Shown one piece after another: positions 6,785-31,294 of a DNA stretch of 64,000 bases; position 1 is the first letter of the stretch; every line of letters begins with the position of its first letter. Origin of the DNA: a virus. The stretch is taken from the IMG/VR virus record IMGVR_UViG_3300030060_002738, positions 34,041 to 98,040 of that record. One strand, written 5' to 3'. A model generated the notes under the pieces. It was not told where the DNA came from and did no database searches. It saw only the letters and a list, made by a program, of their open reading frames with translations. The translations under genes were made by a program, and so were the position numbers.

Positions 6785-6849
6785 TGTATTACACGACTTC
6801 TTTTGATTTTGAGTTGCTATACAATCAGGGAGAGGTGTATCGAAAATGA
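6784..6849 (+). CDS. Coupled microprotein (21 aa)
   Basis: ATG 6784 overlaps the GNAT-like gene stop (TGATG) and its TGA overlaps the next ATG (ATGA at 6846), so the 21-residue peptide MYYTTSFDFELLYNQGEVYR-K exactly fills the gap. GGGAGAGGTG near its end is the ribosome site of the next gene, so it may act mainly as a coupling peptide. Support is positional only. Confidence 0.4.
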   Translation: MYYTTSFDFELLYNQGEVYRK

Positions 6850-7124
6850 GTTGGGAAGATGTATTGAAGAAACCACTTATTCCATCAGAAGAAGAGGTTG
6901 AAGAGATGCTCGATTTTATGAACGTCAGTCCTAGAATGAAGATGGCGAAGTTAGAACGTCAGATTCTAAGAGAGATTGAGAAGGAAGGAGGTGCTTTGGG
7001 AATGAAGAACCTGAAGCAGTTTGCTGATGAGGATAAGTTGAAAGAAGTTCTATCTAGCATGGAGAAAGAAGGCAAGATATTCATGCACAAGGATGGAGAC
7101 ATCTACACACATGAACCGAAGTGA
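6846..7124 (+). CDS. Head-block protein with N-terminal W-LK tag and winged-helix-like domain
   Basis: 92 residues beginning MSWEDVLKK, the first of many products with this N-terminal tag. After a short acidic linker, residues about 35-92 (ERQILREIEKEGG, then LKEVLSSMEKEGKIFMHKDG) look like a winged helix with a beta-hairpin wing, so DNA binding is possible. It precedes further tagged genes in tight spacing. I infer a protein destined for the prohead interior; the function itself is unknown. Confidence 0.65.
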   Translation: MSWEDVLKKPLIPSEEEVEEMLDFMNVSPRMKMAKLERQILREIEKEGGALGMKNLKQFADEDKLKEVLSSMEKEGKIFMHKDGDIYTHEPK

Positions 7125-7129
7125 TTTAG

Positions 7130-7444
7130 ATGAGTTGGGAAAAGATATTGAAAGGAAATGGTAAAGACCCGCAAAACCATACGTTTGCATTTGTTGTTGA
7201 ATGTGATGTTTACGATATGGATTCAGATGTTGTTGACTTTCATATGGAACAGGGCAGTGATTTGATAGAAAATATAGAAGATGCGATTGTTAAAGCATTA
7301 GACAAGAAGATAGGTGATGCCATATTTGACCTTCCTGTGGATATCAGTGGAATCGAAAGTGACATGGAAGAGTTAGAGATGGAAGGGTTTGACACTCTAG
7401 AAAACAGGGTTACCGTTTCTATTAGGGCTGTCGCAAAGAAGTGA
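7130..7444 (+). CDS. W-LK-tagged hypothetical protein (104 aa)
   Basis: Begins MSWEKILKG, then a single compact domain with alternating strands and helices (HTFAFVVECDVYDMDSD; then DLIENIEDAIVKALDKKIG; then VTVSIRAVAKK at the end). The beta-alpha-beta pattern is suggestive, but no family is recognised. Five bases separate it from the previous tagged gene. Confidence 0.65.
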   Translation: MSWEKILKGNGKDPQNHTFAFVVECDVYDMDSDVVDFHMEQGSDLIENIEDAIVKALDKKIGDAIFDLPVDISGIESDMEELEMEGFDTLENRVTVSIRAVAKK

Positions 7445-7449
7445 TTGAA

Positions 7450-7692
7450 ATGACATGGTTCGATGTTCTGAAACTCGACCCTTTGGAATACAACATGCGA
7501 ATGCGAGACAGGTTGGCTACCAAGCCTCCTTCAAAGCCAACAGCAGAGCCTTCACAAACCACTCCTACAAAACAACAGTGTGATGTCTGTGGGAGGATGA
7601 AACTAAACGTGAAGGAACGTGCTGATGGCTCTACTATCTGTTCAGTCTGTGAAGCAATGCAAAGGCGAAAAGATACTGAAGCAACAAGTTAA
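7450..7692 (+). CDS. W-LK-tagged zinc-ribbon protein (80 aa)
   Basis: I start it at ATG 7450 (MTWFDVLKLD) because this restores the tag at the N-terminus; GTG 7441 would add three residues. A Pro/Thr/Ser-rich linker leads to CDVCGRM and, 17 residues later, CSVCEAM, a standard two-knuckle zinc ribbon. Tag, flexible linker and small metal domain read like a modular cargo protein. Substrate or partner unknown. Confidence 0.65.
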   Translation: MTWFDVLKLDPLEYNMRMRDRLATKPPSKPTAEPSQTTPTKQQCDVCGRMKLNVKERADGSTICSVCEAMQRRKDTEATS

Positions 7693-7738
7693 TTAGAACA
7701 ATGTTTATTGTCCACAGTATATTCAGGAGGTTCAGGTT

Positions 7739-7933
7739 GTGTCATCAGCATACGATTCATCTTGGTTTAATATCCTGCGAGCGGAGGGCGCAGTTACATC
7801 AACCTCCCCCGGAACACAGGCACTATTCAATATAAGATTCGGGGGAAAAAGGAAGCATGGGAAAAAGAAAAGAAAGAAATCTAAAACCCATAAAGAAGGC
7901 AGAGATAGCACCCGGCTTGCCCGTAGACTTTGA
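7739..7933 (+). CDS. W-LR-tagged short basic protein, or N-terminal part of the next gene
   Basis: GTG 7739 follows CAGGAGGTTCAGGTT, a good ribosome site. The product starts MSSAYDSSWFNILRAEG, a tag variant seven residues in, and ends in a very basic stretch (GGKRKHGKKKRKKSKTHK). Its last third overlaps the 7857-8945 gene in another frame. A +1 shift within about 7836-7931 would fuse the tag to that 362-residue protein, which has no N-terminal tag of its own. Basic tails also occur in other tagged proteins here, so an independent 64-residue product is equally possible. Confidence 0.5.
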   Translation: MSSAYDSSWFNILRAEGAVTSTSPGTQALFNIRFGGKRKHGKKKRKKSKTHKEGRDSTRLARRL

Positions 7934-8945
7934 AGGCGAGATTCCTAACTTCGCTGCTCTTTACAATCGATGGGAGAAAAAGGCGGAGCAGTTCAAGATT
8001 GACTACACTGGTAGAACGAACACCAACGTTTTAGATTGGATTGGAAATATCGGACAGAAGGGAAGGGCCAAGCCTGATGGTTCGACTGGCACAGCAGTAG
8101 CCCCTCCTCAAGAGTACATCGACAGAGCCAAAGATGCTGGAACGAAGGATGAGTATTCTTCTGAGCAGATATCAGCGATAAAGCAACTTCAACAGTACCT
8201 CATAGAGAACAAGAACTCAACGACATCAGAGGTTAATCCTGCCAATATCAAATTCAACGACATTCGCTCTTTTGATAAGAGCGGGAAGATACTTTCTAGA
8301 AGGGATGTGTATGGTGATTTCAGAACCAAACAGTTTGTGAAGTATCAAGCAAGGCACAAGAAGAAGACCTTCGCACCTGCGGATACTCACTATCTTTCTA
8401 GACAGCCCGGTAAGGCAAGACCCCCTACTTGGCAAGCATTGTTTGGGAATACCAAAGATGTCGCTTTGGACTTCAATAGTCCTAGTCTTCTGATGATAGC
8501 CACTTTCACTCTCGATGCCTTTGCTAGTGGAAAGGCGAAGGGAAAAAACACCAAGGCAAGACCATTCAACCTAACTAGGGTTAGGCCAAGCATCAGGGGA
8601 GAGGCAGCGAAGTGGGCTTACGAGAACATAAGCGATTTGAAAACTTGGTTCGATAGCAAGATGAAGGACTCTTCATACCTTTACACGACTGGTAATCTGA
8701 ATGACAGAAAATTACACAGAGACATCAAGGAGAGACCCTTCAAGTTGACAGATAATGAATCCAAGAAATTGCTAGAGTGGGTAGGGGCAGATGTGAATGT
8801 CGATTTGGATAAGGTCTTCATCAATCTATCAAGAAGGCAACTTAGGAATATGGCAGAAATTGCTGGTTTTGAGAATCAAAAAGAAAAAGAGGAAGTGAAA
8901 AAGCACGATTCCTCGGATTGGAGAGAAATTGTAAAGGCGGTATAG
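7857..8945 (+). CDS. Hypothetical head-block protein with C-terminal W-VK motif (362 aa)
   Basis: 362 residues, basic N-terminus (MGKRKERNLKPIKKAE), mixed charged body, no recognised domain. The last residues are SSDWREIVKAV, so the tag-like motif occurs here at the C-terminus. AGGAAGC just before ATG 7857 could serve as a ribosome site; the alternative is expression as a frameshifted extension of the 7739 frame. Probably a virion or head assembly protein from its position. Confidence 0.6.
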   Translation: MGKRKERNLKPIKKAEIAPGLPVDFEGEIPNFAALYNRWEKKAEQFKIDYTGRTNTNVLDWIGNIGQKGRAKPDGSTGTAVAPPQEYIDRAKDAGTKDEYSSEQISAIKQLQQYLIENKNSTTSEVNPANIKFNDIRSFDKSGKILSRRDVYGDFRTKQFVKYQARHKKKTFAPADTHYLSRQPGKARPPTWQALFGNTKDVALDFNSPSLLMIATFTLDAFASGKAKGKNTKARPFNLTRVRPSIRGEAAKWAYENISDLKTWFDSKMKDSSYLYTTGNLNDRKLHRDIKERPFKLTDNESKKLLEWVGADVNVDLDKVFINLSRRQLRNMAEIAGFENQKEKEEVKKHDSSDWREIVKAV

Positions 8946-8948
8946 AAA

Positions 8949-9041
8949 ATGAAGTGTAGAGGAATAAAGGAAGTACACCATGATAATATGGCAATAACGA
9001 CATGTTGCCCGTATTGTTACACAAATTGTTGGGGTGGTTGA
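8949..9041 (+). CDS. Cysteine-rich microprotein (30 aa)
   Basis: ATG 8949 begins three bases after the previous stop. The 30-residue product has Cys at residue 3 and then CCPYCYTNC near the end, enough for one zinc site with HH at 10-11. It fills the gap before the 9043 gene exactly, with overlap of its stop region. Similar Cys-rich microproteins lie at 2830 and 3423. Confidence 0.45.
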   Translation: MKCRGIKEVHHDNMAITTCCPYCYTNCWGG

Positions 9042-9042
9042 A

Positions 9043-9228
9043 ATGGATTGGAAAAAAATTCTGAAAGAAGAGATGACTGAGGAAGAGAGAAAGAAGTACA
9101 TGAAGAGATTAGCAGAGTTGCAGCGATTGGAGGAAAACATGAAGCGAGACGTAGAAGGAACTGCTGAAGCATTCAGAGAAGGAGAATCTCTTGAACAGTA
9201 TAAGAAAAGAATGGGATACAACTTCTAG
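9043..9228 (+). CDS. W-LK-tagged helical protein (61 aa)
   Basis: Start ATG 9043 (MDWKKILKEEM) is chosen over GTG 9034 because it places the tag at the N-terminus. The rest is a continuous charged helix (ERKKYMKRLAELQRLEENMK) ending in ESLEQYKKRMGYNF, probably a coiled coil. A short helical cargo or scaffold-interacting protein is inferred. Confidence 0.6.
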   Translation: MDWKKILKEEMTEEERKKYMKRLAELQRLEENMKRDVEGTAEAFREGESLEQYKKRMGYNF

Positions 9229-9236
9229 GTGATTGG

Positions 9237-9893
9237 ATGATTACGAGAAAGCGGTGTCCTCTCTGTATGCATGAGGATAGAGCCATGTTTGAGAGTGACT
9301 TAGAGGAGATGAGTTACACCGCAGATGCTCTTGACCAACAAATGGGTTGGAAAAGTGGCACAACAGCAAAGCATCAGAGGAATCACATGGGAGGATATGT
9401 CGATTCTGCCAATCCAAGTTGTAATATCTGCACAAGTCCAATGAGAAACGAGTTAGAAGCCCAACTTCATGCCGGAGAACTTACTCCTTCGCAGGTTGGA
9501 GAGATGGTTGAGAGTTCAGAGGTGCAAGTAATGCGTCATATGGAGAAACATCTTAAGCCAATCGTGCAACAATCTGCGGCAAATCTGATTGCAGCGAGAG
9601 AAGTCGATGAAATTCAGACCTTGAGCGTCAACGTTCAGCGATTGGAGCAAAAAATTGATACACTTTTCTCTGAAGATTCGACAGACCCGAAATATATCGA
9701 CTCATTGACTAAATTAGCGAAGGAAGTTCGTGAATCTCTGAAGTATTTGCTAGAGTTCAAGGGCAAACTAGTGCATAAGAGACAAGATACCATCATCGTT
9801 CATCAGATGCAGGTCATCAAAGAGGTTCTAGCACAGAATCATCCTGAAGTTTGGTTGGATGTAAGAGACAAAATGCAGGAGAAGATGCAATGA
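9237..9893 (+). CDS. DNA-binding protein with two zinc-HTH-like repeats, candidate small terminase
   Basis: ATG 9237 follows TAGGTGATTGG. The 218-residue product has two similar units: CPLCMHEDRAMFESDL ending in KHQRNH, and CNICTSPMRNELEAQL ending in RHMEKH. Each couples a CxxC knuckle to a helix-turn-helix-like stretch and a closing HxxxH, so each probably binds one zinc and DNA. The C-terminal half (NVQRLEQKIDTLF onward) is a coiled coil for oligomerisation. DNA-binding plus oligomerisation domains upstream of terminase suit a small terminase or a late regulator. It lacks the W-LK tag. Confidence 0.5.
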   Translation: MITRKRCPLCMHEDRAMFESDLEEMSYTADALDQQMGWKSGTTAKHQRNHMGGYVDSANPSCNICTSPMRNELEAQLHAGELTPSQVGEMVESSEVQVMRHMEKHLKPIVQQSAANLIAAREVDEIQTLSVNVQRLEQKIDTLFSEDSTDPKYIDSLTKLAKEVRESLKYLLEFKGKLVHKRQDTIIVHQMQVIKEVLAQNHPEVWLDVRDKMQEKMQ

Positions 9894-11647
9894 GTTGGCA
9901 AGAGGTTCTCAAAGAAAAGAAGGTTGAAGCAAAACCTGTTGCTGAACCAATAAAGAAACAGGAAGTCAAGGACTTTCCAATAAAACCCGATTCAGCCACA
10001 TTCAAGATTTGGCAAGCAGCGTCTAAGGATGATACATGGGCGGATTACACAAAAGACGGTTTGACTTCTTCCCAAGTCCAATCTGTTCAGAAGGCAAAGA
10101 GACTTCTTCAAGGGGAAGTTGTGAACATCGGAGGAACTGACTTTCAGTTAAAGGACAGAGATGCGGTAGGTAATGTCAATGCGATTATTTCTAGATTGGA
10201 TAACATAACACCAAAGAAAACTAGTCTTACTGCGAAGAGAAGAAAGGTTAATGCCGATGTAAAACACTTCATTCAGAATGAGAAGTATGATGAACTTCTC
10301 AATCTACTAGAAGGTAGAGGACAAGACAAGTATGCAGGGAAGTTATCGAATGTTGCTCAAAGGGCAAGAAAAATAATTCAAGAGTCTAAGATACTGAAGA
10401 ACAAGATACTCAGTGGTGCTGAAGACAAGCATCCTGAGTTGGTTAGGATAAAGGAAATTCTAAAGATAGGAGGAGTTCCTCAGATTGAGATAAATCAGAC
10501 AATTCCCGAACCCACTGTTGTTTCTTACATCAAGAAGATAATGGCACTTAACTTCAGTAAGAACTCAAGGAACAAGACGGACTTCATCTATGAGGATGCA
10601 AACGACCAACTTGCTAGGAATATATTCGGACACACCAAGATTCTTCCTTCATTGGAGTTCATCTTGGATAACGAGGGACTGAATGAGAGCAACATACCAA
10701 CAGCCTACAAGAAGAGAAACGTGATTGAGAACATCGCTTTGCAGAAGTTGATTGCTGGTGTTCTATCAGAGGAGAACAAGGATGCTCAGAAATCCATCAA
10801 CAGTATCTACGACAAGTACAAGGAAGACATCGAGGCATTCTACGGGAGAGAGGGGGAGACTCCTGAAGAGGCAGAGAAAAGGCAGAAACTTCGTAATGAG
10901 AGCAGGGGGAAGTGGGATGCCATATCAAGGAAGGGCAACAAAGCAAGAAGGGACTTCTTCGCAGAGATTAGGGAAGATGATGACACCAATGCTTACTTTG
11001 AGGACTTGATGGCCGAAGTGACAGAGGACAAGACAAACAAGATGACATCGGAGATTAGAGATGAACTCGTAGAGGCGTTGCAGAACAGTGACCCCGATGA
11101 CTTCACAGCCTCTCTCAAAAAACTAGGAATCCAAGACACGTTTGATGACATGGAAGAGATTGATGAAAAGTTAGACGTTGACAAGACAATAGATGCTTTA
11201 GTGCAAATGAAGACATTGCCTAATGGTCTAGTAAGACCTGTTGCGGGAACAGAGGAGACTCTCAGATACTTTGACGAGCAGGAGATTGATGCTTGGTCTA
11301 TCTTAGAGGATGTGATAGATGATGACATCACAACTTTCGATGCAGGACAGACTGGAACACTAGACAAGATTGTTATCATACAGAAGAGACTTGGGGAACT
11401 GTATGATGTTGAGCCTGAGATAGATGAGGAGGATGTCGAGAACGGAGACATGACCAGCGAGGAGTTCAAGCAGTTGATTCTAGATACTTACAGCCCGATT
11501 CGTAAAGCGTTCCTTGAGGGCGTTGCAAAGAGGATGAAGGACATTAGTGCAGAAGGGAAGGTTCTAGGAAAGAAGATAAAGAGTTCACAAGGCGGTTTCG
11601 TTGAACCTGCCATTTGGATTCAGATACAATTAGGGGTGAGCGAGTGA
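9890..11647 (+). CDS. Large W-LK-tagged charged protein (585 aa)
   Basis: The frame extends to 9851, but ATG 9890 overlaps the previous stop (ATGA) and gives MSWQEVLKEKK, so it is the real start. After a Pro/Lys linker the protein is long, highly charged and mostly helical (for example KAKRLLQGEVVNI; KYAGKLSNVAQRARKI). No enzyme motif is visible. By size, tag and place before terminase I infer an abundant internal head or ejection protein. Confidence 0.6.
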   Translation: MSWQEVLKEKKVEAKPVAEPIKKQEVKDFPIKPDSATFKIWQAASKDDTWADYTKDGLTSSQVQSVQKAKRLLQGEVVNIGGTDFQLKDRDAVGNVNAIISRLDNITPKKTSLTAKRRKVNADVKHFIQNEKYDELLNLLEGRGQDKYAGKLSNVAQRARKIIQESKILKNKILSGAEDKHPELVRIKEILKIGGVPQIEINQTIPEPTVVSYIKKIMALNFSKNSRNKTDFIYEDANDQLARNIFGHTKILPSLEFILDNEGLNESNIPTAYKKRNVIENIALQKLIAGVLSEENKDAQKSINSIYDKYKEDIEAFYGREGETPEEAEKRQKLRNESRGKWDAISRKGNKARRDFFAEIREDDDTNAYFEDLMAEVTEDKTNKMTSEIRDELVEALQNSDPDDFTASLKKLGIQDTFDDMEEIDEKLDVDKTIDALVQMKTLPNGLVRPVAGTEETLRYFDEQEIDAWSILEDVIDDDITTFDAGQTGTLDKIVIIQKRLGELYDVEPEIDEEDVENGDMTSEEFKQLILDTYSPIRKAFLEGVAKRMKDISAEGKVLGKKIKSSQGGFVEPAIWIQIQLGVSE

Positions 11648-14505
11648 AACCAAGCGTAGATTTGAACAGGGCATTTGAGATTTTTATCAAAGAGGGGAAT
11701 GCTGGCCTGAAGGAATACATGAAGCGGTTGAACGACCAATACTTAGATGAAGAGGGCAATCCTACGACTCCTGACTCCAAAGTTGCAGAGCAACTGAATC
11801 CTGATGAGATGACATATGAAGCACTCATAGCAGAACTGAAGAGAAGGGGAATAGACAAGTATGTTCCAAAGAAAAAGAAAGTCAAGAGAAAGGACTACAA
11901 CCCTGATACTGGAAAATTGCAAGAGAAAGAAGTCGAGATAGAAGAGCCAGTACCTGCTAAGTTCAACAAGGAGGAGGCGATTGCTAGGCTCAAACAGGAG
12001 ATAGGAGAAGCCCCTGCACCAAAGGAGAGAGTGACTGAGAAACTGAAACTCATAGATATGAAAGAGTTCCCTGATGATGTTCTCTATACCTACTTGAGAA
12101 AGAACTTCAACTCAGAATCAGAGAACAAGACTGCAATCATGCAGGGAGAGACCTTCCAAGGAAGGCTTCTAGTCAACCCTGATGGCACTCCTAGAAGTGG
12201 AGCGGAAATCAGAAACAAGGTAGAAGACGAGTTGAGAGACAAGTTCCCAATCATCTTCAGACAAGACAGACCAAAGCAGTACATAGACGAACTAGTTCGA
12301 TTGGGATTGAGAAGTTTCACTAGCAGAGTCGCTGAAGATGCTTCTGCTCTAACTAGGATGTCGTCTACTCAAATCATAGATGAGGCCAAGGAAGACAGCG
12401 ACGTAAATGATATTCTAGGCATGTTCACTGAGAAGGGAAGGAAACTGAACTACAAGGTGTTTGAGTTATACTTCAGGCAGTTTGCCCCGAAGAGGGAAAC
12501 GAGAAGGAACATCAAATGGAACAACTACGTCAACAGGACATACAGGTTAGGCTTCACTAGAGAGAAAGTCGATGAGGCCATAGACATCTTGGAGAACAAG
12601 ATACCTGACTACTTCGTTCCGATTCTGTTTCCTTTCAAGGCAATGCTCGTAAGTCTGAAGGATAAGAAGGAAACAGGACAGGGACAATATAGAGTGTCAA
12701 GATTGAGAGCATCTCAGATTATCGGAAGAGTGGATACTAAACAGATAAAGAAGAGAGCGGAGATATACGGGTATTGGAAGGAGAAGTCAAAGGAGTTTGA
12801 GGAGTTCAAGACTGCTCACAATAATTTCATGGATGCTATGGACAAGTTGGATGGCGAGTATTCACCTGAGTTGGAGTCCACTTTCAAGGAATTCAAGGCT
12901 ATCAAGATTGACAATCTGAATTACATCCAACGACATGACAGGGTTGACTTTGAGGATATAGACAACATAGAGCAGAAGTCAGTCGCACTTCTTCGCAGTT
13001 TCCTGAGTGATATCAGACAGATGCCACCTAACAGGGTAATCTTCACTGATGAGGAAACAGGCAAGGATGATGTCAGTAGATACGGAGAGTTGGAAACCGA
13101 CAACGAACTAATCGATGAGGAGAGTGAGTTGAGGGCTAAGATTAATTCCCTATCGAACAAGAAGGTAGACCCTCTTTACGCATACGCATTGAAGGAGGGA
13201 TTCACAAACGAACTGTCTGCTGGTGCAGTTGCCTCCAAGCAACTTGGTGAAATAAAGAGAAGATTGAAGACTGGTCTAGTATTGATAGAGATGGAGAATC
13301 TCATACCTAGAATAGACTCCTTCATCAAAAACTTAGAGAAGATGGAATCAGGAAACCTGAAGGATTTGTTTCTTCCAGTGTCAGATGCTATTGAAGGATA
13401 TGAGGGTAGCAAGAAGATAAATGATGATGTTGCAGAGTACCTGAGTCTGTTTGCTGAGTTTATTGAATATGGTGATGACTTCGATAGACGTTCAAAGGAT
13501 GCATCATCAGTCGTTGGACAAGGAGAGAGAAAGGTAGGTGGCAAGACCGTCAGGGAAGCAGCCTCCCCTAGAGTAGCATTAGGTAGAAGAGGAAAAAGAA
13601 AGACGCATCTAACTGAATTCAAGGAGTTGGATATCGCTACTAAGTTCAACAGCCTACTAGAGCAGATAGTCAACTTCTTCATCGAGCCGAGTAGAAGCAA
13701 GTACAAACCAACTGATGAAGCACTCCCCTACATCAAGAAGGTTGGTAGTCGTAAGATTGAGAACATCGTAAGAGAACCCAAGGCTGGTGACAGTCCATTC
13801 ATACATCTCCTTAGAATGGAGAGCGATGATTGGAGACTATCGATGTCCGATTTGAAAAACATATCCAAGTTCATGCAACTTCTAACTTCGCTCAATGTCG
13901 GGTCAAAGCAGAAGGAACTAGTGAGCGAGACATTTGACTTGGCTGATATGATAGACGATTTGTTTGAGGGAGAAATGACAGAGATGGTCAATGTGGAATT
14001 TGGGAATTTCTTGAGTGGTCTCTTTGAGGATGCTAATCTAGGTGATGTGAAGTTCGGACTAGGAGGCAAGAAGAAAGATACGAAGGAGTGGGCAGAGGAC
14101 TACAAGGCATCTAAACTGTATCCGTTTGAGTCCATCTTCAATCACTTGGTTATGAACAAGGAGAAGTATAAGGAAATGCAGGGAGCAACCCAACTCATCG
14201 ATAGGATTCTAACAGCAGAGAATGACCTGAACATAACCAAGTCTGCTGAACAGCGACTCGTATTGAAGGCACATGATGAGATTAGAAAGATGATGGGCAA
14301 ACCAACTTACTATGGTCTTTCCAAAGTCGAAGATTACAATGCAGTATCAGAGGCGATTAACATAATGAATAGCAAATACAATGTTGATATTACTGCAATG
14401 GATGTAGAGAATATTGTCAAGGAGTTTGATTCGATGACTAGCATCGGAACAAAGTACGGCATTCCACAAGAGGGGGTCTATTTCCTCAAAGCGAACTTCA
14501 GGTGA
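11644..14505 (+). CDS. Very large charged helical protein (953 aa)
   Basis: GTG 11644 overlaps the previous stop (GTGA), which I prefer to TTG 11614. The product begins MKPSVDLNRAFEIFIKEG, which could hold a degenerate tag (FEIFIK). It runs through long acidic-basic helices with no recognised domain; RVSRLRASQIIGR and KRGKRKTHLTEF are basic patches. At 953 residues it is one of the largest head-block genes. Internal virion protein, DNA-ejection protein or structural tether are all possible; the sequence does not decide. Confidence 0.55.
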   Translation: MKPSVDLNRAFEIFIKEGNAGLKEYMKRLNDQYLDEEGNPTTPDSKVAEQLNPDEMTYEALIAELKRRGIDKYVPKKKKVKRKDYNPDTGKLQEKEVEIEEPVPAKFNKEEAIARLKQEIGEAPAPKERVTEKLKLIDMKEFPDDVLYTYLRKNFNSESENKTAIMQGETFQGRLLVNPDGTPRSGAEIRNKVEDELRDKFPIIFRQDRPKQYIDELVRLGLRSFTSRVAEDASALTRMSSTQIIDEAKEDSDVNDILGMFTEKGRKLNYKVFELYFRQFAPKRETRRNIKWNNYVNRTYRLGFTREKVDEAIDILENKIPDYFVPILFPFKAMLVSLKDKKETGQGQYRVSRLRASQIIGRVDTKQIKKRAEIYGYWKEKSKEFEEFKTAHNNFMDAMDKLDGEYSPELESTFKEFKAIKIDNLNYIQRHDRVDFEDIDNIEQKSVALLRSFLSDIRQMPPNRVIFTDEETGKDDVSRYGELETDNELIDEESELRAKINSLSNKKVDPLYAYALKEGFTNELSAGAVASKQLGEIKRRLKTGLVLIEMENLIPRIDSFIKNLEKMESGNLKDLFLPVSDAIEGYEGSKKINDDVAEYLSLFAEFIEYGDDFDRRSKDASSVVGQGERKVGGKTVREAASPRVALGRRGKRKTHLTEFKELDIATKFNSLLEQIVNFFIEPSRSKYKPTDEALPYIKKVGSRKIENIVREPKAGDSPFIHLLRMESDDWRLSMSDLKNISKFMQLLTSLNVGSKQKELVSETFDLADMIDDLFEGEMTEMVNVEFGNFLSGLFEDANLGDVKFGLGGKKKDTKEWAEDYKASKLYPFESIFNHLVMNKEKYKEMQGATQLIDRILTAENDLNITKSAEQRLVLKAHDEIRKMMGKPTYYGLSKVEDYNAVSEAINIMNSKYNVDITAMDVENIVKEFDSMTSIGTKYGIPQEGVYFLKANFR

Positions 14506-14509
14506 GGAA

Positions 14510-16431: not shown

Positions 16432-16440
16432 GGTGACGAT

Positions 16441-17808
16441 ATGAGCGAAAAAGGAGACAAACTCAGGGAACAGGCGGCACTTTCTGAAGAAGCAGCAGAA
16501 CTCGCTGACCGAGAAGAAGAAGTCCAAGGGAGACAGCAGACTCTTACTGCTGAACTTGAGGTAACAAAGTATCAATGGTTAGAGGAGCAACCAATCAGCA
16601 GTCACTTTGAGATAGAAAAGAAATTCGCAGAGGAACACAACATCGGACTCTCGGAGGCTCGTAAAGCCATAAGAAACGACTTGAAGAAATATGAGATAGA
16701 GGGGAAGGACATCCCACTTATGATTAAGGAACTCAAGATGTATCGAAGAACTCTGAAGGGAGACCCGAAAGTAGCAGTGACGAAATCCATAGACAATCTC
16801 ATCAACGCATACTCATCACATTTGGATGAGAGCATCAACAAAATATACTGGATTAGAAAATACAAACCCGCTCTGAAGGACATGACATTATCAGAGGAGA
16901 ATATTATCAAACTCTCATTGATTCACGATGAGACAACACGCAGGGAAATTATAGATTCCCTGTGTAAGTATTGGGAGTGCAGATTGGATATTGACGGCAT
17001 GGCCTATGGTCAGGAGTTTGCTAAGTTGTCAAAGGAGATGACTAGCAGCAAGAGAGCAGTCAATAGCAAAATAAGAAAATACATTGTAAACATAGGGCCG
17101 AAGGAACTCATCAAGAGGCACATAGTAAAACTAGTCAGTGAAGAACAGGGAATCTCTGCAAGACAGGTACATGAGAGACTACCTGAGAATCTATTCAAGA
17201 AATCTTCTCCTTCTATGATTTCAAAGATGGCACGTTCTGCAAACGTAACGATAGTCGATGGTGCATTATACAAGATGAGTGATGACATCAAGAAAGACAT
17301 CTATGCTTACACTGCTGCATTCATTGATTCGGATGGATACATTACAATGGACAAGAATCACAACCCAAGAGTAGGATTAGTTGCAACGGGAGAAAGAGGA
17401 AAGGCATTCATGTTGGAGATGCATAAGTCTCTTGGATGTGGCAGACTACACTTAGACCAAAAATCACCACAGGATACCAAACCAATAAACAGATTAAACT
17501 TCTACTCTCGTAATGATGTCTCTGAAATACTAAGCAAGTGTATGCCCTTCTTCAAACTCAAGAAGAAGAACGCAGAAATATTGGTGGAACTGCTTCGCAT
17601 GAAGAAGAGTCACAAGAAAGCAACTTGGTATAATGCTCGTAAGGAAGAACTGTTCAAACTTATGAAGTACGAGAATCACAAAGATGACAAGAACTACGAT
17701 TTTGGCAAGTATAACATTGACATAGATACTGTTGCTAAATACTATGAGAATGACAAGACAACCGAGATGGATAAGTTAGAGGCCATCATTAAGAACGAGG
17801 TAGAATAA
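16441..17808 (+). CDS. Protein with C-terminal LAGLIDADG endonuclease domain, between terminase and portal
   Basis: 455 residues after an excellent ribosome site (GAGGTGACGAT). Residues 1-60 look coiled-coil. Residues about 215-280 (VSEEQGISARQVHERL onward) resemble a winged helix. From about 285, IYAYTAAFIDSDGYITMD is a LAGLIDADG motif with the catalytic Asp, followed by strands (PRVGLVATG) and a CMPFFKLKKKNAEIL segment typical of this fold. Only one such domain is visible, so it would act as a dimer. The intact neighbours and tight spacing suggest a fixed role, perhaps in DNA cutting during packaging. A free-standing homing endonuclease is the alternative. Confidence 0.7.
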   Translation: MSEKGDKLREQAALSEEAAELADREEEVQGRQQTLTAELEVTKYQWLEEQPISSHFEIEKKFAEEHNIGLSEARKAIRNDLKKYEIEGKDIPLMIKELKMYRRTLKGDPKVAVTKSIDNLINAYSSHLDESINKIYWIRKYKPALKDMTLSEENIIKLSLIHDETTRREIIDSLCKYWECRLDIDGMAYGQEFAKLSKEMTSSKRAVNSKIRKYIVNIGPKELIKRHIVKLVSEEQGISARQVHERLPENLFKKSSPSMISKMARSANVTIVDGALYKMSDDIKKDIYAYTAAFIDSDGYITMDKNHNPRVGLVATGERGKAFMLEMHKSLGCGRLHLDQKSPQDTKPINRLNFYSRNDVSEILSKCMPFFKLKKKNAEILVELLRMKKSHKKATWYNARKEELFKLMKYENHKDDKNYDFGKYNIDIDTVAKYYENDKTTEMDKLEAIIKNEVE

Positions 17809-17809
17809 A

Positions 17810-19444
17810 ATGGTAGAAGAAAAAAGACCCACCTTGTTTCAGCGTTTAACCCGCAGAACAACCCCGAAGCCCCAAGACAGAACGATATACAATCCGGGTA
17901 TACAAGAGAAGGACACATCCTATCTGATAACCGCCCCAATAATCTATCATGTCACATATCAATCTGTGATTGCTAGAACTTGTATCACCCAATTAAAGAA
18001 TGAGATATTCAGAAGAGGATATACTTGGGAGGAGAAGTTTACCGCTAAATGTGGTGATTGTGGAAAGGAACACAAGCGAGCAGTAACAGAGTGTGTGGAA
18101 TGTGAAAGTACAAATCTCATAAAACCTGATAGAGAACAACTAAAGTACATACAGAAATTACTGGATGGCTATGTGAACAAAGGCGAGCAGATGTTCGTTG
18201 ATGTTCTGAAAGAAATGGAAGACGACCTGAACATCATGGATGATGCATACATGGTCATGGTCAAGGAATACTTCGTTGATGGAAACGGAGATATCCGTAT
18301 GCATCGAATCAAAGAGGTCTATCGTGGAGACCCTGTTAGTATGCACATATACGCTGATGAGAATGGTGAAAGAGGACATGAAGGATTCACCTGTCTAAAT
18401 CATCGAAACTTCATCAGCAAGTCGATGACTGATTCATGCGAGATATGTGGTTCTGAGTTGCATCCTGTGCATTATGTCAACAGGGCAAATGGAAAGGAGC
18501 AGTATTTCATTGATGGAGAGGTTCTACATTTCAGCAAGTATGCACCATCGAGACTCTACGGCCAGTCTCCGATAATGACTCTATGGAATCACATCACCAC
18601 GCTCATCGCTATGGAGAACTACGTCAACTCGTCATACACCAAGGCTAGAATGCCAAGGGGAATACTAGCAGTTCAAACTAGAAACATGGAATCAATGAAG
18701 TCCTTTTGGCGTGGTGTCAAAGAGAAGATGGAGCAAGACCCGCACTTCATTCCAGTAATGGGTATAGAGGGTGATGGAAAATCAGGAGCAGTCGAATGGG
18801 TCAAGTTCATGGACAGTCTCAAAGAGATGGACTACATACAAGTCAAGGAAGACTTGAGAGATAGAATCGCTGCCTTCTATGGAGTTAGTAAAATCTTCAT
18901 GGCAGATAACTCTGCCAGTGGCGGTCTCAACAACGAGGGTATGCAGATACTTGTAACCAACAGAGCAGTTGAGATGGCACAGACGATTTGGAACGAGTAT
19001 GTTTTCCCCTTTATGACGAAGGAGTTTGGGATAACGGATTGGCAGTTGAAACTACCGCCTTCTGAAGAAGAGGATGAGATTGCCAAACTACGAAAGAGAG
19101 AAATTGAAGTTAACGTAGCAGCATCAATCAAGAATCTAGGCTTTGAAGTTGACATGGATGACGAGGGAAGATTCACTTTCAAGAAGCCTGAACCAAAGCC
19201 TGAGCAACAAGGGCCGAAAAAAGAGGGAGAGGAGAAAGTAGAAACTGACCCATACGCAGGAACAGATATCGATGCAAGTCAATTAGGTCAGTTGCAAGAA
19301 CAGCAATTGATGGGAGGTCAAGGTGGTGGAGAGACTAGAAACAAACCATCTATGGAGACTGGCCCTGATAAGAGATTCACAGGATTACCTAGAGAAGCAG
19401 GTAATGAGAATGTTGATTCACGGACAGAGAGGAGAGTAGGTTGA
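17810..19444 (+). CDS. Portal protein with two zinc-ribbon insertions
   Basis: 544 residues directly after the LAGLIDADG gene. Typical portal features are the early ITAPIIYHVTYQSVIARTCI helix region, YFIDGEVLHFSKYAPSRLYG, the long central helix with MENYVNSSYTKARMPRG, and RDRIAAFYGVSKIFM with NNEGMQILV near the end. Forms the dodecameric ring at the head vertex. Unusual are CGDCGKEHKRAVTECVEC near residue 80 and a second pair, CLNHRNF and CEIC, near 200, each able to bind zinc. The Gln/Gly/Pro-rich tail from about 460 is disordered. Confidence 0.9.
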   Translation: MVEEKRPTLFQRLTRRTTPKPQDRTIYNPGIQEKDTSYLITAPIIYHVTYQSVIARTCITQLKNEIFRRGYTWEEKFTAKCGDCGKEHKRAVTECVECESTNLIKPDREQLKYIQKLLDGYVNKGEQMFVDVLKEMEDDLNIMDDAYMVMVKEYFVDGNGDIRMHRIKEVYRGDPVSMHIYADENGERGHEGFTCLNHRNFISKSMTDSCEICGSELHPVHYVNRANGKEQYFIDGEVLHFSKYAPSRLYGQSPIMTLWNHITTLIAMENYVNSSYTKARMPRGILAVQTRNMESMKSFWRGVKEKMEQDPHFIPVMGIEGDGKSGAVEWVKFMDSLKEMDYIQVKEDLRDRIAAFYGVSKIFMADNSASGGLNNEGMQILVTNRAVEMAQTIWNEYVFPFMTKEFGITDWQLKLPPSEEEDEIAKLRKREIEVNVAASIKNLGFEVDMDDEGRFTFKKPEPKPEQQGPKKEGEEKVETDPYAGTDIDASQLGQLQEQQLMGGQGGGETRNKPSMETGPDKRFTGLPREAGNENVDSRTERRVG

Positions 19445-19545
19445 GCGACATACTTGAGTTTGTCAGGAAGTGGAAAGAAGAGATAGACAGACTCAATGCA
19501 GAAACAGATGAGAGACTAAAGAAATACTTGGAGGGAGAGAAGTGA
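19441..19545 (+). CDS. Coupled coiled-coil microprotein (34 aa)
   Basis: TTG 19441 overlaps the portal stop (TTGA) and its own stop overlaps the GTG of the next gene (GTGA), so it fills the gap exactly. The product is one amphipathic charged helix (MSDILEFVRKWKEEIDRLN onward). It may be a small helical head protein or simply a coupling frame. Confidence 0.45.
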   Translation: MSDILEFVRKWKEEIDRLNAETDERLKKYLEGEK

Positions 19546-20342
19546 GTTGGTTTGACGCTATCAAGGAAGAATCAAAGTTCACTCCTGAGAATCTATCCGA
19601 AGAGAAGAGAAGACTGTTTGAGTCTGAGCCATCCTTTGAGGTAGACTTCCCTGATTATGAGCATCCTGATAATGAAGAGGAACTGCCAAAAGTCATCGCC
19701 ATGATGAAGAATAATGGTATTGACGAGGATGAGATGGAGGACTTAGACCAAAACAATATCGAGATGATGTTGGAGATTGTCGGTGAGGAGAAGGAAGACA
19801 GGGAGGATTTGATTGAAGATATTGATATTCACACAATCAAACTCAAAGTCAAGTATGGCAGACCAAGACCATACGAAATATCAGATGAGATAGAATCCAC
19901 AACTGATACGGATGACAGTCCATCTTTTCCAAGCGGTCATGCGATGGAGGCTTATGCTTTAGCGAAGATTCTAGGAAAACAGTATCCTGATAAGGAAGAG
20001 GAGTTGATGAAACTTGCCGGAAAGATATCACTATCTAGAGTAAGAATGGGAAATCATTATCCAAGTGACATAGAGGTTGGGAAGAAAGCAGGACTTCTAA
20101 TTGCTGATGCGTATCTATCTGAGTCAAAGATTGAGAAGTGGCAAGATATCCTGCACAAGAAAAGGAAAAGCAAGTCCAAGGTAAATCAGGCAGGAAACTA
20201 CACAAAGCCCGGTATGAGAAAGAGGATGTTTCAGAGAATCAAAGCGGGTAGCAAAGGTGGCCCTGCTGGTAAGTGGTCAGCGAGGAAGGCACAGTTGCTT
20301 GCTCAAAGATACAAGAAAGCAGGTGGTGGTTATCGTGGCTGA
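19542..20342 (+). CDS. PAP2-superfamily phosphatase with W-LK tags at both ends of the catalytic region
   Basis: GTG 19542 gives MSWFDAIKEE, then an acidic linker to residue 95. The catalytic set of the PAP2/haloperoxidase superfamily is complete: K102-x6-R109-P110, P130-S-G-H133, and S165-R166-x5-H172-x3-D176, so phosphatase activity through a phospho-His intermediate is likely. No membrane helices flank it, unlike lipid phosphatases, so the substrate may be soluble. Residues 199-206 (KWQDILHK) repeat the tag, followed by a basic tail with GKWSARKAQLLAQRYKKAGGGY, a motif known from other viral proteins. Between portal and capsid genes, it looks like an enzyme packaged in the virion. Confidence 0.75.
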   Translation: MSWFDAIKEESKFTPENLSEEKRRLFESEPSFEVDFPDYEHPDNEEELPKVIAMMKNNGIDEDEMEDLDQNNIEMMLEIVGEEKEDREDLIEDIDIHTIKLKVKYGRPRPYEISDEIESTTDTDDSPSFPSGHAMEAYALAKILGKQYPDKEEELMKLAGKISLSRVRMGNHYPSDIEVGKKAGLLIADAYLSESKIEKWQDILHKKRKSKSKVNQAGNYTKPGMRKRMFQRIKAGSKGGPAGKWSARKAQLLAQRYKKAGGGYRG

Positions 20343-20607
20343 TTGGTTTGATTTTCTAAAGGCCAAGTCAAAGTCTCAGAGGTCTCTGTCAACTTGGACA
20401 GATGAGGAGTGGGGGAGTCAAGAACAGCATCGTGCAAAAGAGAAGGGAAAAAAAGCACCTTCCAAAACCAAAGGAAGATACATGCCAAAGGCCACATACA
20501 AAAGAACCCCAAAGAAGACATTGGACTATCAAGACAGAAAGAAAAGGAAGGGTCGTAAGAAAGGAAAGCAACATGTCCCAACAGGAAGGAAGTTCTCTCA
20601 GAAGTGA
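20335..20607 (+). CDS. W-LK-tagged, extremely Lys-rich basic protein (90 aa)
   Basis: GTG 20335 gives MADWFDFLKAKSKSQ; the open frame further upstream is a shadow of the PAP2 gene. After the tag almost a third of the residues are Lys or Arg (KKAPSKTKGRYMPK; RKKRKGRKKGKQHVPTGRK). Such composition is expected of a protein that neutralises packaged DNA, comparable in idea to the basic internal proteins of T4. No fold is predicted. Confidence 0.65.
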   Translation: MADWFDFLKAKSKSQRSLSTWTDEEWGSQEQHRAKEKGKKAPSKTKGRYMPKATYKRTPKKTLDYQDRKKRKGRKKGKQHVPTGRKFSQK

Positions 20608-20612
20608 TTATC

Positions 20613-21020
20613 ATGCCAATTCGTAAAGTCAAAGGAGGATACAAGTGGGGCAAGAAGGGCAAGGTCTATCGAAGTCGTAAAGGTGCTGAGAGACAAGCAG
20701 CCGCCGCTTATGCTTCAGGCTACAAGAAGTCAATGAATTGGTTTGATACTCTAAAGAGAGACAAGAAAGACATGAGAGTTGGTACTGTTTATCCTTCAGA
20801 TAGAGAAGGTAAGAAAATTATGATGCTAACCCATGAAGGAAAGAAGATTCATGCTGGTGCTAAAGGCTACGGTAATTACAAGAGAAAGGGTAAGAATCGT
20901 GGAGGTGGAACACACAAAGACCCTGCTAGGAGAAAGAATTTCAGAGCAAGGCATAACTGTGACCAATGTAAAGGTAGAATTACTACCCCTAAGTGCCTAG
21001 CATGTAAAAAACTGTGGTGA
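20613..21020 (+). CDS. Two-module basic protein with an internal W-LK motif
   Basis: ATG 20613 (MPIRKVKGGYKWGKKGKVY) matches a short module common in phage proteins (GGYKWG-GK-Y-x-R-AE-QAAAAYASGY); GTG 20604 is an alternative start. Immediately after YASGYKKS comes MNWFDTLKRD, the tag, then a second basic module ending in DPARRKNFRARHNCD, also a known phage motif, and CDQCKG-CLACKKLW, a zinc pair. The tag thus sits exactly between two modules. This could mean a processed precursor or an internal start at ATG about 20734; no strong ribosome site is visible there. Confidence 0.65.
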   Translation: MPIRKVKGGYKWGKKGKVYRSRKGAERQAAAAYASGYKKSMNWFDTLKRDKKDMRVGTVYPSDREGKKIMMLTHEGKKIHAGAKGYGNYKRKGKNRGGGTHKDPARRKNFRARHNCDQCKGRITTPKCLACKKLW

Positions 21021-21025
21021 GAGAG

Positions 21026-21202
21026 ATGAATTGGAAAGAGACATTGAAGAAACAAACAGAGAACGAACCTAAAATGGTTGACCCTGCTCAACAAGAGGAG
21101 ATGGACAAGGCACTTGTTGGAGGTCAGAAGGAACTCGACAAAGACAAGGATGGAGACATTGATGCTAAAGATTTCAAACAACTAAGGGAGGAAAGGAAAT
21201 GA
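21026..21202 (+). CDS. W-LK-tagged single EF-hand microprotein (58 aa)
   Basis: ATG 21026 gives MNWKETLKKQTE; the preceding stop is at 21018-21020. After a short linker the loop DKDKDGDIDAKDF has Asp at EF-hand positions 1, 3, 5, 7 and 12, Gly at 6 and Ile at 8, which is a canonical calcium-binding loop. A single EF-hand usually needs a partner or dimer. Calcium sensing during assembly or entry is an inference. Confidence 0.65.
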   Translation: MNWKETLKKQTENEPKMVDPAQQEEMDKALVGGQKELDKDKDGDIDAKDFKQLREERK

Positions 21203-21429
21203 CAGAGAAAAAGAAAGGAGTAAGAGAATTGGAAAGAGAACTAGCAGAAGCAAGAGCAGAGCAATACGCTCACCACAGTAGAAGTGTGACAAAGAACAGG
21301 GACTTCTCTGTTGGGGGTGTTGACCCTAATGCTGTGAAGAAGGAGAGACCTGATACAGCAGATGTTCCTGATGCAATCCTACTACCTAAGAAAAAGAGGT
21401 CAAGAACACCGAACAACCCTTGGGGATGA
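21199..21429 (+). CDS. Hypothetical charged protein (76 aa)
   Basis: ATG overlaps the previous stop (ATGA) and its stop overlaps the next ATG. The N-terminal half is a charged helix (VRELERELAEARAEQYAHH), the rest extended and Pro-rich (ILLPKKKRSRTPNNPWG). It has no tag, unlike its neighbours. Function unknown. Confidence 0.6.
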   Translation: MTEKKKGVRELERELAEARAEQYAHHSRSVTKNRDFSVGGVDPNAVKKERPDTADVPDAILLPKKKRSRTPNNPWG

Positions 21430-22517
21430 TTCAGATGGCGCAGGATTTCATGGATATCTTGCGTAAGAAGAAGGATGAAGATTTCTTTACTGGCGAGGAG
21501 GATATCACTGATTTCCAAAGAGATGTCGAACAGGACACTGATGAGGGAACGACTGACACCATGATGGGCAGGTTGGATAGAGATACTAGACAAGGGATAA
21601 GCGGTGCAGAGGCAGCAGACGAACTAGATGCGAAGAGAAAGAAGAAGTTGCAGGAAAAGGCAGTTAGTGCGAAGAACCTACAAATGTGGGGAAGGATACT
21701 AGAAACCTTCAGTAAAAACCCTGACATCACGGCTAATGAAATACGGGATGCAGTAAAGGAGTTCAGTAAATCTTTCTTGATTCCAAGAAATAGAAGCAAA
21801 GATAAGATAAACAGATTCTATCAGAGTATAATAACACAACAAGCAGACCCTAAACTCTTGAACTTGTTTTTTGCCAAGCCTGAAGATAAAGGCATACAAG
21901 TTTCAGGAGATGTAGAAGCACTTGGCTTCGACCTCTCAGAAGTAGAAAGGGAATATAATGGACAAGAATCGCTTGATATTCTAAGAGAGTTCTTTGAAGC
22001 AACTGCTGATATGCCTAGAGATTTGCTTACTGGTAAGAAGATGACGAGGAGTAAATTGGACAGGTTAGAAGCCATGCTCATAAACACAGCAAAAATGGAT
22101 ACCGATAATCTCCCTAAAGACCCTAAGCAGATACTGAAACTTTTCAGAGAAATAGTATTGACTCTTGATAGATACAAGGAAAATGAACAGTCTAAACTTA
22201 GCAAAGAAGACTCGACTATTGATAGTAAGGATAGAAATTGGGAAATGAAAGTCGAACCCGGTGAGTTTTCCTATCAAACAGAGACAGAAGTATTCGATAT
22301 AAATCCCTCTGTTCTAGGTAGTGTAGAGGTTCTACTAGACAATCTTGAGAACATGATGAACGATGTAACACAAAGAAAAACTAACTCTGATGATACAGAT
22401 GAAGTAGATAGTTTGGATAAACTGCTGAAGCAGATGAAGAGTTTAATTAAAGTAACAATAGGAGATTACAAATTCAAACTCTCAGATGATGAAACAAGGG
22501 CAATTAAAATTAACTGA
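21426..22517 (+). CDS. Helical head-block protein with F-variant tag (363 aa)
   Basis: ATG 21426 overlaps the previous stop. The N-terminus MIQMAQDFMDILRKKKDEDF has the tag pattern with Phe in place of Trp. The remainder is acidic and helical, with paired segments such as LQMWGRILETFSK and KQILKLFREIVLTLDRY. No family recognised. Position and tag variant suggest a head-internal or assembly protein. Confidence 0.6.
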   Translation: MIQMAQDFMDILRKKKDEDFFTGEEDITDFQRDVEQDTDEGTTDTMMGRLDRDTRQGISGAEAADELDAKRKKKLQEKAVSAKNLQMWGRILETFSKNPDITANEIRDAVKEFSKSFLIPRNRSKDKINRFYQSIITQQADPKLLNLFFAKPEDKGIQVSGDVEALGFDLSEVEREYNGQESLDILREFFEATADMPRDLLTGKKMTRSKLDRLEAMLINTAKMDTDNLPKDPKQILKLFREIVLTLDRYKENEQSKLSKEDSTIDSKDRNWEMKVEPGEFSYQTETEVFDINPSVLGSVEVLLDNLENMMNDVTQRKTNSDDTDEVDSLDKLLKQMKSLIKVTIGDYKFKLSDDETRAIKIN

Positions 22518-22538
22518 GCATACACAGGAGGCAACCAC

Positions 22539-22868
22539 ATGACATGGCAGGAGATACTGAAAGCCTCCGAGTTTCTAGAGAAACTAGAGCCAAAACAGAA
22601 GAAGAAGATAAAGAAACTTCTTCAGTCAACACAGCCAACTGAGTACATGGGACAAGAGATGACGAAGTTAGAAGATGTCATTAAGGAGATGGAAGACCTC
22701 GATTTAGTAAAAACAGACAAACTACTCACAAAGAAGATGAAGTCCTTCCGTGAGAAGAATCTAGACATACTCGCAAGTGCTGCTGAACTTCGCAAAGATT
22801 ATCAAACGCTCTATGACCAAATCAGGAGCGTAGCATACCCAAAGGGTGACAAGGAGGAAAAGAAATGA
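22539..22868 (+). CDS. W-LK-tagged helical protein (109 aa)
   Basis: ATG 22539 follows ACAGGAGGCAACCAC (GGAGG ribosome site) and begins MTWQEILKASEF. Charged and helical throughout, including KKKIKKLLQSTQ and VIKEMEDLDLVKTDKLL. Its stop overlaps the next start (ATGA). No enzymatic motif. Confidence 0.65.
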   Translation: MTWQEILKASEFLEKLEPKQKKKIKKLLQSTQPTEYMGQEMTKLEDVIKEMEDLDLVKTDKLLTKKMKSFREKNLDILASAAELRKDYQTLYDQIRSVAYPKGDKEEKK

Positions 22869-23191
22869 ATTGGTTTGACATAATGAAAATATACGGCAAT
22901 GAAGAGGAGAATAATCTACCTAGAGAAATACTTGACCTTCTTGAGAAGTTAGAAGAAATAGAAACAGACTACAATGCTAAGGTGGATGAATTTGATTACG
23001 AGTTAAGCGAAACATGTGAAAAGATACTTGACTTTGTACAGAATGATGCAAATTTGGAAGGTAAGAATAAAAATGTCCTAATAAACATAACTAGAGAACA
23101 TCAGAGGAAGTCAGTTTCAGAAAGTGACTATGAAACAGTATATCACTATTTCACAGATATCTATACCGAATTAAACGAGGTGGAAGAGTGA
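22865..23191 (+). CDS. W-MK-tagged acidic helical protein (108 aa)
   Basis: Begins MNWFDIMKIYGNEEE, then acidic helices (EILDLLEKLEEIETDY; ETCEKILDFVQND) and a final YHYFTDIYTEL helix. Coupled on both sides by overlapping start and stop. No recognised family; assigned to the tagged head-block group. Confidence 0.65.
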   Translation: MNWFDIMKIYGNEEENNLPREILDLLEKLEEIETDYNAKVDEFDYELSETCEKILDFVQNDANLEGKNKNVLINITREHQRKSVSESDYETVYHYFTDIYTELNEVEE

Positions 23192-23367
23192 GTTGGTTTG
23201 AAACACTAAAGGGAGATTGTGGCACAGAGAAGTCAGATGAGATGGCAAGAGTTACAACAACAGCCTCCACCGGACAAGACAAAGAAGCGGCCAAGAGGAC
23301 TGAGGATAAAGAAGCAGAACTATTGGCTATGATACGTGAGAGAAACAAGAAAGCGAGGGGAAATTAA
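23188..23367 (+). CDS. W-LK-tagged microprotein (59 aa)
   Basis: GTG 23188 overlaps the previous stop (GTGA) and encodes MSWFETLKGDCGTEK, then a Thr/Ala-rich linker and a charged helix (EAELLAMIRERNKKARGN). Its stop at 23365-23367 abuts the next ATG at 23368. The tag and perfect packing between neighbours are strong support despite its size. Confidence 0.65.
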   Translation: MSWFETLKGDCGTEKSDEMARVTTTASTGQDKEAAKRTEDKEAELLAMIRERNKKARGN

Positions 23368-23685
23368 ATGACATGGCATGACATACTAAAAGCACCTCCA
23401 ATAAGAAACCCTAGAGAATCAGAGTTTGATGATAGAAGTAATGACAATCTATCATTGCCTGAGTATGTTGATTTGTTCAGAGAGAAAGTAGACCCAATAA
23501 TAAGAGAAGCAGGTGAAAGGGAAGAAAAGTATGCAACCATTAAACTCACTGACTTGAAAATGACACGGACAAAGGCACAAGAAATAGCAAGGGAACTATA
23601 TAGGGACAAAGGCTACGCCGCAATATTTGCTGGTTCAGATGGTGAATTAACATTCAAACTAGAAGGGGAACAAAGGAAGTATTAA
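23368..23685 (+). CDS. W-LK-tagged protein with small alpha/beta domain (105 aa)
   Basis: Begins MTWHDILKAPPIRNP. After a disordered stretch come helices (EYVDLFREKVDPIIREAGE; KAQEIARELYRDKGY) and a terminal hairpin (AAIFAGSDGELTFKLEG). ATG directly follows the stop of the 23188 gene. Family unknown. Confidence 0.65.
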   Translation: MTWHDILKAPPIRNPRESEFDDRSNDNLSLPEYVDLFREKVDPIIREAGEREEKYATIKLTDLKMTRTKAQEIARELYRDKGYAAIFAGSDGELTFKLEGEQRKY

Positions 23686-23687
23686 AG

Positions 23688-23912
23688 ATGAGCAAAAAAG
23701 AAGAAAAAGACGAAATGTTACTATTAATGAAAGAACTTGTGAACAAGGTCAACGCCTTGGAGCAAGCAGTATACAACAAGGACAACCTACTGATGAAGTC
23801 AGGATATGTTGTTCGTGAGACTCCAACACCAGTTATGAACAATACACAAGTTCCTGATGGTGGTCAAATGTCTTGGGATGAGATTCGCAAGATGACGGAG
23901 AAAATGGGGTGA
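23688..23912 (+). CDS. Coiled-coil protein with C-terminal W-RK motif (74 aa)
   Basis: The N-terminal half is a coiled coil (MLLLMKELVNKVNALEQAVY). The C-terminus reads MSWDEIRKMTEKMG, the tag motif placed at the end rather than the start. The scaffold at 28257 ends in a similar MSWGDIHNLARK. A coiled-coil adaptor presenting the motif is an inference. Confidence 0.6.
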   Translation: MSKKEEKDEMLLLMKELVNKVNALEQAVYNKDNLLMKSGYVVRETPTPVMNNTQVPDGGQMSWDEIRKMTEKMG

Positions 23913-30847: not shown

Positions 30848-30857
30848 GGTGATTAAG

Positions 30858-31289: not shown

Positions 31290-31294
31290 TTTAG

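Follow-up and report, generated by a model that had tools for sequence, protein, structure and literature searches.

A short tryptophan tag shared by head-block proteins and the prohead protease of a magrovirus-type virus, a candidate procapsid-docking peptide

Many genes in the head block of the IMG/VR virus record IMGVR_UViG_3300030060_002738 encode mutually unrelated proteins which begin with the same eight-residue tag, M-[STND]-W-x-[DEN]-[IV]-[LIV]-K, and in all relatives examined the fusion of prohead protease and scaffold ends in the core M-S-W-x-D-I. The stretch analysed (the window, 64,000 nucleotides) comprises positions 34041-98040 of the 98,040-base record. Judged from these sequences, the motif is probably a portable procapsid-docking peptide of magrovirus-type viruses that would serve both capsid docking and cargo loading.

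The head genes of the window are a terminase (from 14938), a portal (from 17810), the protease/scaffold fusion (from 27016) and an HK97-type major capsid protein (MCP, from 28259). For MCP and portal the only matches among named phages are haloarchaeal Druskaviridae and methanogen-associated viruses, with 21-29 % identity; Foldseek matches for the MCP model support the HK97 fold only. Relatives of the MCP are encoded by 576 stretches in IMG/VR. Magroviruses are uncultured viruses of marine Poseidoniales archaea with genomes of 90-100 kb and distant kin of the Druskaviridae (PMC10768690). Head genes nearer to Druskaviridae than to bacteriophages and a genome of 98 kb, in the magrovirus-type range of about 90-100 kb, fit a virus related to this group, with a Poseidoniales archaeon as the putative host. 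Contigs of the group (L084, L085, L086) also lie within bacterial metagenome-assembled genomes labelled Maricaulis and Altibacter, probably as a result of misbinning.

Occurrence of the tag in the window and in related viruses

A relaxed scan (ATG or GTG, one to three amino acids, then W-x-x-[IVLTFAM]-[LIMVF]-[KR]) gives 13 sites in the window and no more, each of them on the plus strand; over 30 runs of an order-1 Markov control the average is 1.3 and the highest count 3. Five of them start the genes at 6846-7124 (MSWEDVLK; possible winged helix, weak, PF22560, E 0.013), 7130-7444 (MSWEKILK; a translation without match in the Pfam scan), 7450-7692 (MTWFDVLK; possible zinc ribbon, weak, E 0.07-0.1), 9043-9228 (MDWKKILK) and the long gene at 9890-11647 (MSWQEVLK). 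Further downstream follow a PAP2 phosphatase with GTG start at 19542-20342 (MSWFDAIK; PF01569, 7e-15; phrog_17747), a lysine-rich gene with GTG start at 20335-20607 (M-ADWFDFLK), a site at 20733 (MNWFDTLK), and a gene at 21026-21202 (MNWKETLK) with the EF-hand-like stretch DKDKDGDID. The last four are the gene at 22539-22868 (MTWQEILK), which represents the most widely conserved tagged family (44 loci), and those at 22865-23191 (MNWFDIMK), 23188-23367 (MSWFETLK, GTG start) and 23368-23685 (MTWHDILK). The strict DNA pattern ATGNNNTGGNNNNNNNTNNTNAAR occurs nine times versus 0.11 expected, a number reached in none of 100 shuffles; one of the nine matches (11145) is out of frame. By a conservative count, terminal tags are found in 17 of 26 head-block genes and in none of 21 tail-block genes (Fisher p = 1.3e-6).

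Every tag listed in an earlier sequence-only reading of the window is present, including that of the lysine-rich peptide at 7739-7933 (plus strand), which had been placed some residues inside the N-terminus and is found there as W-F-N-I-L-R at residues 9-14. The tag had been described as N-terminal. This holds for 12 gene starts of the window and has to be widened, as tags are also C-terminal (7857, 23688, 27016) and internal (19542 and probably 20733).

The motif search of the window and of related viruses which had been proposed as a check shows that the tag is real and wider than first noted. Besides the 13 window starts, the strict pattern gives 145 matches in 17 long virus records, 144 of them on the capsid-gene strand, versus 2 for the reversed pattern. 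Over 82 capsid-centred loci, tagged starts are distributed as 265 upstream of the MCP gene in sense orientation, 3 downstream in sense and 6 in antisense. A deeper lineage, the set fetched with an MCP 46 % identical to that of the window, contains 166 tagged starts in sense and none in antisense orientation. As many of these lie downstream of the MCP gene, the tag tracks the structural gene cluster and not one exact position. The suggested confinement to the block before the capsid gene fits the window, where none of the 21 tail-block genes has a terminal tag, and breaks down outside it, both in the deeper lineage and in a minus-strand gene at 3006-3710 of the 98-kb record (G000), which encodes a tagged protein (MSWFSILK) of 235 amino acids without Pfam match, far from the head block.

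HVTV-1 and HCTV-1, relatives from haloarchaea with cultured hosts, have neither the N-terminal tags nor the protease motif, and the protease-like protein of vir519 is without the motif. N-terminal tag and protease motif are present jointly or absent jointly in the lineages compared, which offer few independent comparisons. The head-block proteins of HVTV-1 (L087; 3023-6169, 7416-11357, 11350-11811) and HCTV-1 (L088; 2523-5663, 8621-12253) share another terminal module, roughly [RK]VYI-x-[SDN]-[PL]-x-EAP-x-x-V-x-V, which may correspond, in Druskaviridae, to the magrovirus tag.

Proteins behind the tag, C-terminal copies and neighbouring genes

Without the tag, the 325 unique tagged proteins of the first set form 111 clusters, 3 of them spurious (about 108 families); adding the deeper lineage brings the number to 154, a few being spurious, and just 7 clusters are common to both lineages. 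The clusters were formed by BLAST at 1e-4, so that some highly divergent homologues are counted separately. In an alignment of one representative per cluster of the first set only MSWxxILK is common, the invariant W being fixed by the search, and the mean column identity is 4 %, in agreement with the earlier statement that the proteins behind the tag are unrelated. To judge from these alignments, the putative cargo families turn over fast and the tag persists. For the portability of the tag the most telling comparison concerns two tagged cargos, whose bodies have tagless counterparts, with about 57-78 % identity, in marine bacteriophages (Celeribacter, Lentibacter, Roseobacter, Synechococcus, Pelagibacter and Puniceispirillum phages). 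Few functions emerge when the tagged bodies are scanned against Pfam and PHROGs. The PAP2 match is solid and those to acetyltransferase, zinc-ribbon and Lar-like proteins are weak; no common cargo function is claimed, since only PAP2 is solid.

The tag is portable, as it occurs at N-termini, at C-termini and between fused domains. A full C-terminal tag, DWREIVKAV, ends the protein encoded at 7857-8945 (plus strand) and is present in most homologues, many of them divergent. The PAP2 protein carries a second tag, WQDILHK, at residue 200 (nucleotides 20139-20159) ahead of a fused basic domain, and this domain is a separate tagged gene elsewhere. The site at 20733 is probably internal as well, because it lies inside a longer open frame (20604-21020, plus strand) between two phrog domains. 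In the long coiled-coil gene at 21420-22517 (plus strand) an F-type variant, QDFMDILRKKK, is found, which recurs in the family (8 sequences).

The codons of the tag bear on its origin. Of the N-terminal tags with Ser2, 74.2 of 74.3 cluster-weighted cases have the codon AGT; its share is 30 % in gene bodies, and among untagged Met-Ser genes it is found in 33 of 64. The codons that follow vary synonymously. The AGT uniformity points to a common origin of the leader, which would have spread by copying between genes, though it may also stem from a nucleotide-level preference at gene starts. The C-termini of protease and coiled coil, in contrast, mostly use TCN serine codons, which indicates a separate origin or history and an agreement at the protein level only.

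The C-terminal copies belong mainly to two proteins. The Peptidase_S78 prohead protease/scaffold fusion (27016-28257, plus strand) ends with MSWGDIHNLARKVN, its motif occupying nucleotides 28213-28233. The motif is found at 46 of 46 unique magrovirus protease C-termini and, if A is allowed at +3, at 43 of 43 in the deeper-lineage set. All 60 aligned sequences have W402, and much of the preceding region is variable. The second protein, a small coiled-coil head protein (23688-23912, plus strand), ends with MSWDEIRKMTEKMG and has the motif in all homologues found, 44 of 44 in the first set and 35 of 35 in the deeper lineage, where the 35 include some protease sequences picked up through the motif itself. 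A blind scan of all open reading frame ends gives 283 sense and 9 antisense cases, mostly from the protease and coiled-coil families. The logos of N-terminal and C-terminal copies are alike at M(-2), S/D(-1), W(0), D/E(+2) and I(+3); position +4 is L, I or V in N-terminal tags, H in the protease and H or R in the coiled coil. Met at -2 belongs to the motif, since 85-98 % of the C-terminal copies keep it although it starts no protein there.

Several neighbouring genes of the head module were recorded in addition. Inside the module and beside the protease gene, the relatives looked at have an ATP-dependent DNA ligase gene (24413-26977 in the window); near residue 44 most copies read W-[KR]-x-[TI]-V-K, which may be an internal tag. 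Between terminase and portal a protein of 455 amino acids is encoded (16441-17808) whose C-terminal part matches an HNH-endonuclease family (phrog_5046, E 5e-6). The gene directly after the MCP (30057-30551) has a SAP domain at its end (PF02037, E 4e-10), a domain that is DNA-binding as a rule. Two small genes with hydrophobic, membrane-like stretches (30792-31516) follow between MCP and GTPase genes, an order kept in relatives. The GTPase itself (31571-32242), situated between capsid and tail genes, is a Ras/Arf-like small GTPase with the Walker A motif GASQAGKTT and a Roc match (E 5e-5) under the Pfam cut-off; it is conserved in the relatives looked at, and such a protein is unusual in a virion gene module.

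Proposed docking to the shell and competing explanations

The motif, its distribution, conservation and portability and its sharing with the protease and coiled-coil C-termini are observed directly. As the same tag stands on over a hundred unrelated proteins and a near-identical motif at the end of the protease, it is most likely an address label for loading into the shell. The protease/scaffold fusion and the small coiled coil would present M-S-W-x-D-I-H/R at their C-termini, and this end would hold them on the shell. In each genome about 4 to 15 further proteins, which carry the motif mostly at the N-terminus, would be loaded via the same kind of site and packed along with the DNA; they would probably be carried into the next host cell. 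A new gene would turn into cargo by gaining the eight-residue leader, and some of these genes have relatives in marine bacteriophages. With somewhat less confidence than docking as such, we favour a single address code, in which one helical motif at either end tethers the protease/scaffold and recruits up to about 15 fast-changing cargos per genome to the same shell site, cargo being made by grafting of eight residues.

In a low-confidence AlphaFold model of the protease the motif forms a separate helix (402-412) after the scaffold helices, and W, I and L at 0, +3 and +4 would lie on one face of such a short helix. The MCP (28259-29620, plus strand) is favoured over a scaffold hub as the putative receptor since, by analogy, it would be the simplest partner for the C-terminus of a protease/scaffold. 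The N-terminal stretch GYINTVKDLE of the MCP was considered as a degenerate tag; the resemblance is too weak for such a claim.

Several points weigh against the docking reading. Docking, receptor, packaging and delivery are all deduced from sequence, and low-confidence AlphaFold models of protease and MCP locate no receptor. The different residues at +4 in N-terminal and C-terminal copies make different binding sites possible. The comparison with tagless homologues covers few independent lineages, most cargos are without known function in the Pfam and PHROGs scans, and at least one tagged gene, that at 3006-3710 of the record, lies outside the structural cluster. Cargo loading, as already suggested by the sequence-only reading, nevertheless is the best explanation in view of the protease and coiled-coil C-termini, the tagless homologues, the joint absence and the placement at either terminus, with packaging kept as its presumptive part.

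A variant in which the tag is a loading signal and its receptor a scaffold or core hub instead of the MCP is possible, though clearly the less probable choice. It is modelled on the internal proteins of T4, which associate with the core; the hub could be, for example, the coiled coil at 23688 or the proteins at 23918 or 21420, and several conserved coiled-coil genes in the block speak for it. Two of these hub candidates carry the motif or the F-type tag themselves, however, and therefore look like ligands of the site and not like the site.

It is improbable that the motif is mainly a cleavage signal of the prohead protease, with the leader as a propeptide that a cut behind I-L-K would remove. 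The heads of T4 and SPN3US offer examples of processed N-terminal leaders (PMC5694885, PMC10052503), and K is found at +5 in 97 % of the N-terminal tags, where the search demanded K or R. But the C-terminal copies of the protease are without K at +5, a cut after K in DWREIVKAV would leave the tag on the protein, and cleavage alone leaves W and the shared M(-2) unexplained. As a cleavage site I-L-K was rejected, since K is kept in C-terminal tags of this kind and two F-x-I-L-K-like stretches of the protease look like conserved parts of the protease domain. Cleavage may occur on top of docking.

A host-directed signal (for membrane, chaperone or host-factor binding, or a degron) is quite improbable. 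It would gain from the fact that the packaging of tagged proteins is read from sequence and from the tagged gene outside the structural cluster; it is at odds with the sharing of the motif with the C-termini of prohead protease and coiled-coil head protein and with the near confinement of tags to the structural genes. The chance is very small that the DNA itself is the signal, ATGAGTTGG at the 5' end aiding translation or regulation of late genes with the peptide as a by-product. The AGT uniformity of Ser2 speaks for such a role, whereas the C-terminal copies mostly use TCN, the I, V, L and K codons vary synonymously, S is replaced by T, N or D, and fused and internal copies lie away from gene starts. 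Hardly credible is descent of all tagged genes from one old family with bodies diverged past recognition and only the N-terminus kept: the uniform AGT codon suggests a shared ancestry of the leader DNA, but the bodies are unrelated, among them a PAP2 enzyme and proteins for which the named relatives, from bacteriophages, have no tag.

Known systems and meaning for archaeal viruses

The procapsid-docking reading has parallels in several known systems and would unite, in one peptide, the roles of herpesvirus scaffold C-termini and of the T4 and P1 capsid-targeting sequences. In T4 the capsid-targeting sequence (CTS) is a short leader of 10-20 residues on several proteins put inside the prohead; it is removed by the protease and is sufficient for foreign proteins (PMC9024508, PMC5694885). 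The magrovirus tag is likewise a short N-terminal leader common to different head proteins. The tagless phage homologues of two cargos would agree with a tag that is able to load a foreign protein. Unlike the CTS it is also C-terminal and internal, and it is one strict W motif on about 150 families, shared with the protease. Despite a presumably like mode of action it is not classed as a CTS, because it also occurs at C-termini and its removal by the protease is only conceivable. In P1 the 30 N-terminal residues of DarB suffice for packaging of a reporter (PMC9024508); this signal is N-terminal, too, but the Dar proteins of P1 are without a common N-terminal consensus by BLAST, whereas that of the magroviruses is strong. 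The proteins gp53 and gp54 of SPN3US have 15 identical N-terminal residues, and its head leaders are processed, with a proposed role in targeting (PMC5694885); head propeptides of giant phages are mostly longer than 100 residues (PMC10052503). Many head proteins thus carry N-terminal leaders in giant phages as well, where a common eight-residue consensus is missing.

The C-terminal copies resemble other systems. The C-terminal ends of scaffold and protease of herpesviruses bind the MCP (PMC8539031), and here, too, protease and another internal protein end in one motif. The two herpesvirus proteins stem from overlapping genes, while those of magroviruses are encoded by separate genes and the cargo also bears the motif; tethering to the shell is shown for herpesviruses, and for magroviruses tethering and MCP binding are presumed. 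The scaffold of P22 requires a C-terminal helix-turn-helix (residues 268-303) for capsid assembly (PMC9962691), also a helical end of an internal assembly protein, but this domain is larger and not known as a shared tag. Encapsulins load cargo into an HK97-fold shell by short targeting peptides (PMC10960027, PMC11866011). The use of a short peptide and the HK97 fold of the shell are parallels to the system proposed here, but encapsulins are cellular compartments with few cargos, as against the many cargos of a tailed virus that has a protease; an encapsulin shell is without portal, terminase or tail, and portal, terminase, protease and tail genes are all present in the window.

In line with the earlier statement that the motif had not been described, no description was found in open papers on magroviruses, capsid targeting and N-terminal head motifs, with subscription papers, the original magrovirus paper included, outside the scope. 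New as compared with the sequence-only reading are the C-terminal core of protease and coiled coil, the C-terminal and interdomain tags, the tagless phage homologues, the absence in the haloarchaeal viruses and the differing serine codons.

If the single address code is true, the sequences of uncultured archaeal viruses would by themselves reveal which proteins are packaged and presumably injected. A simple rule would then predict the head-carried proteins of abundant uncultured ocean archaeal viruses, and the magroviruses would be a natural case of one short peptide used for both scaffold/protease attachment and cargo loading. The tag would also be a compact signal to try for loading proteins into HK97-type shells, and co-injection of proteins by archaeal tailed viruses would become a directly testable question.

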